A DNA stretch of 34,077 nucleotides, from assembly GCA_944325585.1 (NCBI GenBank), contig CALVAS010000013.1, positions 1 through 34,077 on the forward strand, read 5' to 3'. The position numbers were made by a program, and so were the translations under genes. The stretch is from Candidatus Gastranaerophilales bacterium. GTDB taxonomy: Bacteria > Cyanobacteriota > Vampirovibrionia > Gastranaerophilales > Gastranaerophilaceae. The notes beneath the pieces were generated by a model. The model was not told where the DNA came from. It ran no database searches and saw only the letters and a list, made by a program, of their open reading frames with translations. Shown here piece by piece: positions 25,668-26,580 of this stretch (positions within the stretch are counted from its first letter, which is position 1; the number at the start of each line of letters is the position of its first letter).

Positions 25668-25737
25668 AGAATATGTGGCGGAAATACCGCAATAAATTCC
25701 TCAAAGTATAGAAGGTAGTGAAAATTTAATAAAATAT

Positions 25738-25810
25738 GCCGCAATAGCTCAGTTGGTAGAGCAAGGGACTGAAAATCCCTGTGTCCTTGGTTCAATTCCG
25801 AGTTGCGGCA
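25738..25810 (+). tRNA. tRNA-Phe (GAA anticodon)
   Basis: The cloverleaf is complete: acceptor GCCGCAA/TTGCGGC, D-arm GCTCAGTTGGTAGAGC, anticodon stem AGGGA/TCCCT with loop CTGAAAA (GAA anticodon), T-arm CCTTGGTTCAATTCCGAG and discriminator A. CCA is not encoded. The accessory segment with the Mu-like end begins about 180 bases downstream. Confidence 0.97.
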
Positions 25811-25940
25811 TATTTTTTGATTATAATTCGGCGGTAATTCATGCAACGTTTAACACCTTATTCCCCACAGTCAGTCTTCGTGAGCAATCTTATTTCGCCA
25901 GTGTATTTTTATGTCCAGTTTGTTTTCCCAATAATAAACT

Positions 25941-25967: not shown

Positions 25968-25994
25968 ACTAAATTACATGTATTTATTTGAGTA

Positions 25995-26013
25995 GCGTGA
26001 GTAGCTCAACTGG
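25995..26013 (+). pseudogene. 5' fragment of a tRNA gene, cut at the mobile-element end
   Basis: GCGTGAGTAGCTCAACTGG reads as the 7-base acceptor strand, bases 8-9 and the first D-stem strand plus D-loop of a tRNA (compare GTAGCTCAGTTGGATAGAGC in the intact tRNAs here). Instead of continuing with TAGAGC it passes straight into the first 21-bp repeat. It is too short to name the amino acid. Confidence 0.5.
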
Positions 26014-26031
26014 TGTGATTATTTTGGGCAA
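26011..26031 (+). repeat. 21-bp transposon-end repeat, copy 1 (outer)
   Basis: TGG followed by TGTGATTATTTTGGGCAA. It adjoins the tRNA fragment, so the real element terminus is either the TG at 26011 or the TG at 26014. Confidence 0.8.
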
Positions 26032-26074
26032 TCGGCATTTGACGTGGGTTTGAGGGGTAGGAAGCAAGCAGACC

Positions 26075-26112
26075 ATTTGACCCAGCAACCGGTCAAATTA
26101 CTCTTTTGCTGG
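26075..26112. repeat. Overlapping inverted repeats between copies 1 and 2
   Basis: ATTTGACC (26075-26082) pairs with GGTCAAAT (26091-26098), and CCAGCAA (26082-26088) pairs with TTGCTGG (26106-26112). The two stems exclude each other. The block is richer in G+C than its surroundings and may be a protein-binding or spacer structure of the transposon end. Confidence 0.5.
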
Positions 26113-26122
26113 TCAGGGCAGA

Positions 26123-26143
26123 TGGTGTGATTATTTTGGGCAA
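26123..26143 (+). repeat. 21-bp transposon-end repeat, copy 2
   Basis: Identical to copy 1 over all 21 bases, starting 112 bases further in and in the same orientation. Confidence 0.85.
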
Positions 26144-26189
26144 ATAATTTCAAGACAAGACTTTTAACCTATTTTTGTACTAGTTCAAA

Positions 26190-26210
26190 TGGTATGATTA
26201 TTTCGGGCAA
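26190..26210 (+). repeat. 21-bp transposon-end repeat, copy 3
   Basis: Same orientation, 67 bases after copy 2, with two substitutions (TATGATTATTTCGGGCAA in the core). Confidence 0.85.
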
Positions 26211-26316
26211 AACAAAATATAAAATTAAACATATAAAAAAATATTGATACGAAAAAGACACAATGGTCGGAAGTGGTGTTCTAATTTTTTGCAATTAGAG
26301 TTAATGTGTTTCTGAC

Positions 26317-26580
26317 ATGGAAGATAGATATATTAATATAAAAGAAATAGCAAAGGTAAAAGGTTTAAGCAGCACACGCTCACTTCGTTTGGAAATAAAC
26401 AAAACGGAAAGTAAATATATTGCAAAAGAAGTTAAAGTCAATGGTGGCACATCATATGAAATTTTATTCTCAAGCCTTGAACCTGAAATTCAGCAAAAAC
26501 TTAGAAATGCCGAGAATAAAACAACAGCATTAGTCCCTTTAAATAATAACAAAGAATCAATTGAAGTATCGAGAACCTGA
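26317..26580 (+). pseudogene. Mu-type transposase, N-terminal DNA-binding domain only
   Basis: The 87-residue frame begins MEDRYINIKEIAKVKGLSST, then has KYIAKEVKVNGGTSYEILFS and LEPEIQQKLRNAE. This matches the layout of MuA-like N-terminal winged-helix domains: a helix-turn-helix beginning with an xxIxEIAxxxGLS pattern, a GG-x-YEI strand, then SLxxEIQxKL. A complete MuA-type transposase has about 650 residues with a DDE catalytic core; none of that follows. The frame runs into the pseF fragment and stops at 26578. It starts about 100 bases inside the third repeat, as expected if the repeats are its binding sites. The family assignment is by pattern and context, not by search. Confidence 0.55.

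Follow-up and report, generated by a model that had tools for sequence, protein, structure and literature searches.

What left three copies of a repeat in one orientation, together with a reading frame of only 87 codons, behind the tRNA-Phe gene of a Candidatus Gastranaerophilales genome? The preliminary description of this DNA had proposed the left end of a small, non-phage Mu-type transposon. Our answer, to which we assign a probability of about 0.75, is that the feature is the relic of an element lying downstream of tRNA-Phe, and that its family homes to tRNA genes by means of a MuA-like transposase (A1) and a MuB/TniB-like ATPase (B1), with the product of a third gene (C) as the target selector.

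Borders and content of the left-end feature

The window, that is the whole stretch of 34,077 nucleotides that was analysed, is an entire contig (C13) of a 1.76 Mb genome in 105 contigs. The following features, all on the forward strand, are referred to below.

25737 to 25811, forward strand: tRNA-Phe(GAA), the target gene (ARAGORN)
25902 to 25922, forward strand: TGTATTTTTATGTCCAGTTTG, a probable left-end stub of an older element (the same stub lies behind the tRNA-Met of locus L192)
25974 to 25978, forward strand: TTACA, the five bases outside the terminus, presumably the left copy of a 5-bp target duplication
25979 to 26552, forward strand: left-end relic of a Mu-type element, 574 bp (DNA comparison with intact elements)
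26014 to 26031, forward strand: core of transposase-type site L1 (repeat search)
26126 to 26143, forward strand: core of transposase-type site L2 (repeat search)
26193 to 26210, forward strand: core of transposase-type site L3, with two changes (repeat search)
26242 to 26316, forward strand: leader before A1 with a GGAA-N6-TTCC inverted repeat, operator-like (conserved in 12 element families)
26317 to 26577, forward strand: truncated A1 (MuA-like) gene, 79 native codons and then 8 foreign ones

The repeat TGTGATTATTTTGGGCAA was found exactly at 26014 and 26126 and with two changes at 26193, in each case on the forward strand, with the start-to-start spacings of 112 and 67 that had been described. 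Three matches are above the shuffle expectation (mean 0.15), and none of 100 shuffles reached three. The first 79 codons of the frame are the N-terminus of a MuA-like transposase of ~665 residues, and over 81 residues the frame is 96–98% identical with its two best full-length relatives. The domain search proposed for the frame on its own gave a divided result, with no match in Pfam but a match to the phrog_310 transposase (E 5.7e-7). The shortness of the frame and its lack of a Pfam match would suit a reading of the repeats as regulatory sites with no connection to a transposon and of the frame as an ordinary regulator. This reading, which we consider scarcely credible, is refuted by the identity to full-length transposases and by the 574 bp of common DNA starting at a transposon terminus. 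Repeat matches were also obtained at pilin-gene leaders on two other contigs of the same genome (C2 and C8; L005 and L006) and were rejected as chance matches with no transposase.

DNA comparison set the borders of the feature at 25979 and 26552, in place of the 26011–26580 given originally. The left terminus, TGTATTTATTTGAG, is at 25979, and homology starts exactly there in three independent elements; identity is 98.4% across the 574 bp with one of them (L261, genome G012) and ~95%, in two blocks, with another from Ca. Adamsella avium (L203). The homology breaks sharply at 26552, where the transposase gene has reached codon 79, and is followed by an unrelated truncated frame that had no Pfam match, then by a TIM-barrel gene and a GNAT gene. 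The window holds no right end of the element, and its copy is, as judged from sequence comparison, a relic, the left end of a Mu-type element that has been broken. The presumed right copy of TTACA has been lost; sister elements have 5-bp duplications.

Neither the relic state nor the proximity of a target tRNA had been part of the preliminary description. The terminus lies 167 bp past the 3′ end of tRNA-Phe, and the probable older stub begins 90 bp behind the same gene; in L192 this stub directly follows tRNA-Met and a full left end comes next. The order infC–tRNA-Phe is kept across the genus, and the DNA behind tRNA-Phe differs from species to species.

The leader before A1 has been kept across element families that otherwise share little. 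Its GGAA-N6-TTCC repeat is probably an operator, and analysis of the 12 element families gave no covariation in support of an RNA structure.

Intact relatives and their ends

Searching related genomes, as had been suggested, matched the frame to transposase genes in 47 of the 99 relatives searched, many of them full-length (~665 residues), and a scan of genome contigs with the family alignment gave 80 loci or more, of which nearly all lie in assemblies of Gastranaerophilales/Melainabacteria or in gut bacteria without a name. The operon order is A1, B1 and C (~225 residues). A1 contains Mu-transpos_C (E 1.8e-13) and rve domains, matches the phrog_310 transposase (E 4.6e-104) and is a DDE transposase with D270, D337 and E382 present. 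B1, an AAA protein, matches the phrog_296 DNA transposition protein (E 1.8e-47) and TniB (E 6.1e-10). A1-B1-C often precedes A2 (DDE_2 and HTH_Tnp_Mu_2), B2 (phrog_296) and GemA, which constitute the canonical early region of Mu-like phages.

The claim of a small, non-phage transposon is unsupported, because the nearest intact relatives are ~52–53 kb long and the one in genome G011 is a Mu-like prophage, which further encodes terminase, portal, sheath, tape measure, tail fibre and endolysin. Other members of the family carry defence cargo (type II restriction-modification and Vsr), and L241 is a member that is not a phage.

The predictions made about the ends fared better. The intact relatives end in TG...CA, carry three repeats on the left and two, inverted, on the right, and have a 5-bp target duplication. 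The reading of the feature as the left end of a Mu-type element, with three transposase-type sites and a MuA N-terminal domain, was right. The left terminus follows T-G-T-A-n-T, with G at position 2 in 28 of 33 termini. In the window's subfamily the left sites L1-L2-L3 are spaced 111–112 and 67–77; the spacing 112/67 is peculiar to this subfamily, and its sisters have 111/76–77. The right end consists of two adjacent inverted sites finishing ...CAAACCATGTGnnnnnTTTACA. The G011 element (contig C6, ~52.3 kb) has AAAAT on either side, and the Ca. Adamsella avium element (~53 kb), behind tRNA-Phe, has a TTGAG duplication. In the window's own genome, a left end behind tRNA-Arg (C64:28–45, L013) and a right end (C21:21–38, L012), both at contig ends with the interior unassembled, have the 5-bp flank ATATC in common and thus probably belong to one complete element. 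A search of relatives for the corresponding empty site returned one distant orthologue of the flanking gene, with no tRNA beside it. Elsewhere in the same genome, at C1:16244 (L011:7210–7306), a solo left end with L1 only lies 49 bp behind tRNA-Ser(TGA) and is another relic.

Every defining feature of the Mu type that was tested is present in the family, which is Mu-type by membership; it lacks only the low insertion specificity that is typical of phage Mu without being strictly defining. With phage Mu and Mu-like phages (BalMu-1 and the D3112/B3 group) it shares the MuA-type DDE transposase, the MuB-type ATPase, GemA, the several left-end transposase sites, the TG...CA ends and the 5-bp duplication. 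It differs in having the extra A1-B1-C before the canonical A2-B2-GemA, and in its linkage, with fixed orientation, to tRNA genes. Transposases of deposited phages reach an identity of at most about 33% with A1, no C was found in 50,697 phage records, and single-protein patterns of C in IMG/VR yielded nothing confirmed. A literature search covering papers outside subscription found no report of tRNA-homing Mu-like elements or of Mu-like elements in Melainabacteria.

Position and orientation relative to tRNA genes

Phage Mu is the textbook case of near-random insertion with low site specificity, and because it inserts almost anywhere, the oriented tRNA homing of the present family is surprising. 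A same-strand tRNA or tmRNA gene ended within 1.2 kb of A1 in 46 of the 67 loci with at least 1.2 kb of upstream sequence, and an opposite-strand one in none. Random positions in the same loci gave 0.84%, and the binomial P of 4e-79, calculated under independence, overstates the contrast because the loci share ancestry and are not 67 independent events. Within 10 kb, a same-strand tRNA was present upstream in 52 of the 57 loci having at least 5 kb of upstream sequence, the longer gaps being cargo or stacked elements; five of the 57 had no full upstream tRNA, and three of these are unexplained. An Rfam scan of loci lacking an upstream tRNA revealed one tmRNA adjoining an element and no other consistent RNA.

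The elements lie downstream of the tRNA, left end first and on the same strand. For 33 hand-checked termini the gap between tRNA end and left terminus was 41–259 bp (median 78, interquartile range 53–99), with the left end often just past the tRNA terminator hairpin. Nine kinds of target occurred at these termini (Ser, Met, Phe, Asn, Arg, Gly, Asp, His and tmRNA), and Gln, Tyr, Ala, Val and Leu were found at further loci. Oriented tRNA homing of the family is thus established statistically from these positions.

As a control set we used those Mu-like phages in the same hosts in which A2-B2 is present and A1-B1-C is not. Their left ends differ from A1-type ends, and a tRNA was found at one of the seven that were located. 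L268 lies behind tRNA-Met, and the left ends of L292, L294, L295, L297, L298 and L299 are in genes or ordinary DNA. L269 and L270, which represent one orthologous site, have a tRNA-Met at 1.6–2.0 kb upstream, and their left end was not located. L293 and L306 were rejected as tRNA-linked control phages, as both have A1-type ends.

The same sites have been hit repeatedly. At eight loci (L212, L215, L229, L232, L254, L261, L192 and L235) left-end stubs of older elements, 12–58 bp long, stand between the tRNA and the present element, indicating that newcomers insert into the left end of the resident at its outer edge, at a similar distance from the tRNA. Partial tRNA genes are also used, with 48 nt of tRNA-Phe located 91 bp before the terminus at L166, 42 nt of tRNA-Asn at L266, and pieces of tRNA-Gln and tRNA-Ser of 21–24 nt located 76 and 71 bp before the terminus at L195 and L235. 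Insertion behind such pieces suggests that, as DNA, the T-arm/acceptor half is sufficient for targeting. At L195 (9490–9565) and L235 (9560–9627) the tRNA 3′ pieces are fused to the inner edge of the right-end sites of an upstream element, and L197 possibly has a similar fragment. Such fragments may act on later insertions as a decoy or a landing pad. L239, ~80–110 bp behind tRNA-Met, lies inside the apparent 5′ half of the following tRNA-Ser gene, so that the target seems to be counted from the upstream tRNA-Met, even at the cost of the next tRNA.

These observations bear on whether the elements are targeted at all. Random insertion with survival only in harmless sites could be imagined, as positions behind tRNA genes have often been called safe harbours (PMC8649781) and the DNA behind tRNA-Phe is variable genus-wide. 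However, survival alone would leave unexplained the 46:0 bias towards the same strand, the repeated insertion 12–58 bp inside older left ends and the insertion behind half tRNAs that have no function. Nor would it account for the scarcity of other intergenic sites, and in the same hosts most Mu-like phages whose ends are of another kind lack the tRNA pattern. We therefore consider survival without targeting improbable.

The third gene as a candidate target selector

The third gene opens with the same winged helix of ~60 residues in every A1-B1 operon that could be read, and what comes after it varies. In the tRNA clade (WC type) a 160-residue domain follows; a tyrosine-recombinase domain follows in elements behind tRNA-Leu, Ala and Val (W-I type), and a MuA-like stretch plus recombinase in a type for which no tRNA was seen (W-IM type). 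The remaining variants have short tails (the tmRNA and tRNA-Ile/Leu clade). The L107–L113 protein (~550 residues) combines the winged helix with a MuA-like DNA-binding stretch and a degraded tyrosine-recombinase domain. Reading the alignment of the recombinase domains by eye showed such degradation generally, with the first Arg replaced and HxxR broken in most. The WC-type protein had no family match in Pfam, and with PDB sequence and Foldseek searches included the winged helix alone was recognisable. Its AlphaFold model is confident (pLDDT 88.9) and shows the winged helix and an alpha/beta domain with no clear relatives, the C-terminal domain giving no recognisable fold match. A BFVD match to Siphoviridae sp. 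ctwQT14 is a homologue with no assigned function.

The presence of recombinase domains raises the question of whether a tyrosine integrase, rather than the DDE transposase, places the element. The 3′ ends of tRNA genes are classical attB sites, the third gene of sister clades has such a domain, and a recombinase reading frame adjoins the module in L073–L076. In integrase-type tRNA islands the 3′ end of the tRNA is itself the border, whereas here the terminus is located 41–259 bp past the tRNA, with TG...CA ends and 5-bp duplications; WC-type third genes have no recombinase domain, and those of the sister clades have lost conserved catalytic positions. Placement by an integrase is largely refuted by the termini and duplications, and we regard it as very improbable.

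Tn7-like elements and CASTs I-B2 and I-D home downstream of tRNA genes through TnsD, at ~30–33 nt in the case of CAST I-D, and TniQ/TnsD of Tn7 have a constant part beside the ATPase and an exchangeable remainder (PMC10293859). The third gene product has the same build, and we took it for this reason as a modular target selector, built like TniQ/TnsD but unrelated to them. A search for TniQ (PF06527) was negative in all 99 genomes, although its control genomes were also negative. The family and Tn7-like elements share a transposase, an AAA ATPase, a modular selector (here a proposed one) and insertion just downstream of tRNA genes, and differ in that the present transposase is MuA-type and not TnsA/TnsB, the spacing is looser and many kinds of tRNA and tmRNA are used. 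Among the reading frames inspected, none was noticed as a TnsA. The family works like a Tn7-type homing transposon, though it is Mu-type by membership.

In the explanation that we favour, a Mu-type element inserted downstream of tRNA-Phe and later lost everything from codon 80 of the transposase through the right end. As to mechanism, C would work with B1 through the constant winged helix, and its variable part would recognise the 3′ half (T arm/acceptor) of the tRNA or tmRNA gene as DNA. B1 would place the A1 transpososome beyond the recognised half, usually past the tRNA terminator, with the left end facing the tRNA, and a 5-bp target duplication would form. The action through B1 and the T-arm half as the recognised part are, like the selector role itself, what we infer from the modular build and the partial targets.

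Several observations do not fit this reading well. The gap to the tRNA is variable, unlike the fixed offset of TnsD; the control phages at L268 and L269/L270 have an upstream tRNA-Met and no A1-B1-C; and WC-type C also occurs in the L073–L076 clade, which has no upstream tRNA. Targeting could be real but come from A1, B1 or a host factor such as terminator structure, RNA polymerase or AT-rich DNA. The left end often falls just beyond the tRNA terminator, and MuB prefers AT-rich DNA. In E. coli, Mu enters pre-tRNA leader and trailer DNA and avoids mature tRNA (PMC7350765). On the other hand, terminators of other genes are not used, the pattern persists behind the 21–24-nt tRNA pieces of L195 and L235, and a selector is the better match for the modular build of the third gene. 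We hold targeting by A1, B1 or a host factor to be rather unlikely, although it deserves serious consideration.

A more general proposal, for which we consider the balance to be even, is that a Mu-type modular selector arose independently of TniQ/TnsD. Its constant winged helix would couple to a MuB-like ATPase, and the exchangeable recognition part would be a new 160-residue domain, a dead tyrosine recombinase or a MuA-like DNA-binding domain. The version represented in the window would direct homing to the 3′ half of a tRNA or tmRNA gene, and would serve Mu-like phages as a site-specific integration module beside the canonical Mu replication module.

Looser parallels exist. The yeast Ty1 and Ty3 and the Dictyostelium TRE retrotransposons home to tRNA genes via RNA polymerase III factors; the loose distance and repeated stacking are alike, whereas these are retroelements, depend on those factors and have no relation to the present family. 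CasMu-I and CasMu-V combine a Mu transposase, MuB and an extra adaptor in CRISPR-guided targeting, CasMu-I including an HTH protein together with a MuA paralogue that is inactive (PMC10910872); they demonstrate that guided targeting can be acquired by Mu elements. In the present family, a MuA-like stretch of DNA-binding type is found in some third genes. CasMu is guided by CRISPR, whereas the family elements examined show no Cas component, no Cas match being found among the few cargo proteins scanned.

If a Mu-type family does combine oriented tRNA homing with a third gene built like an exchangeable head for targeting, programmable choice of target would have arisen outside Tn7, and the ordered set of natural domain swaps could be used to ask how a MuB-type ATPase takes instructions. 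The family would provide systems for protein-guided integration that are compact and cover many tRNA sites, and would explain the tRNA-linked defence islands of gut Melainabacteria.

In L073–L076 the sister A1-B1-C module is part of a unit of ~6 kb that starts with the tyrosine-recombinase reading frame, and in L074 and L075 a tRNA faces the other end of that unit.
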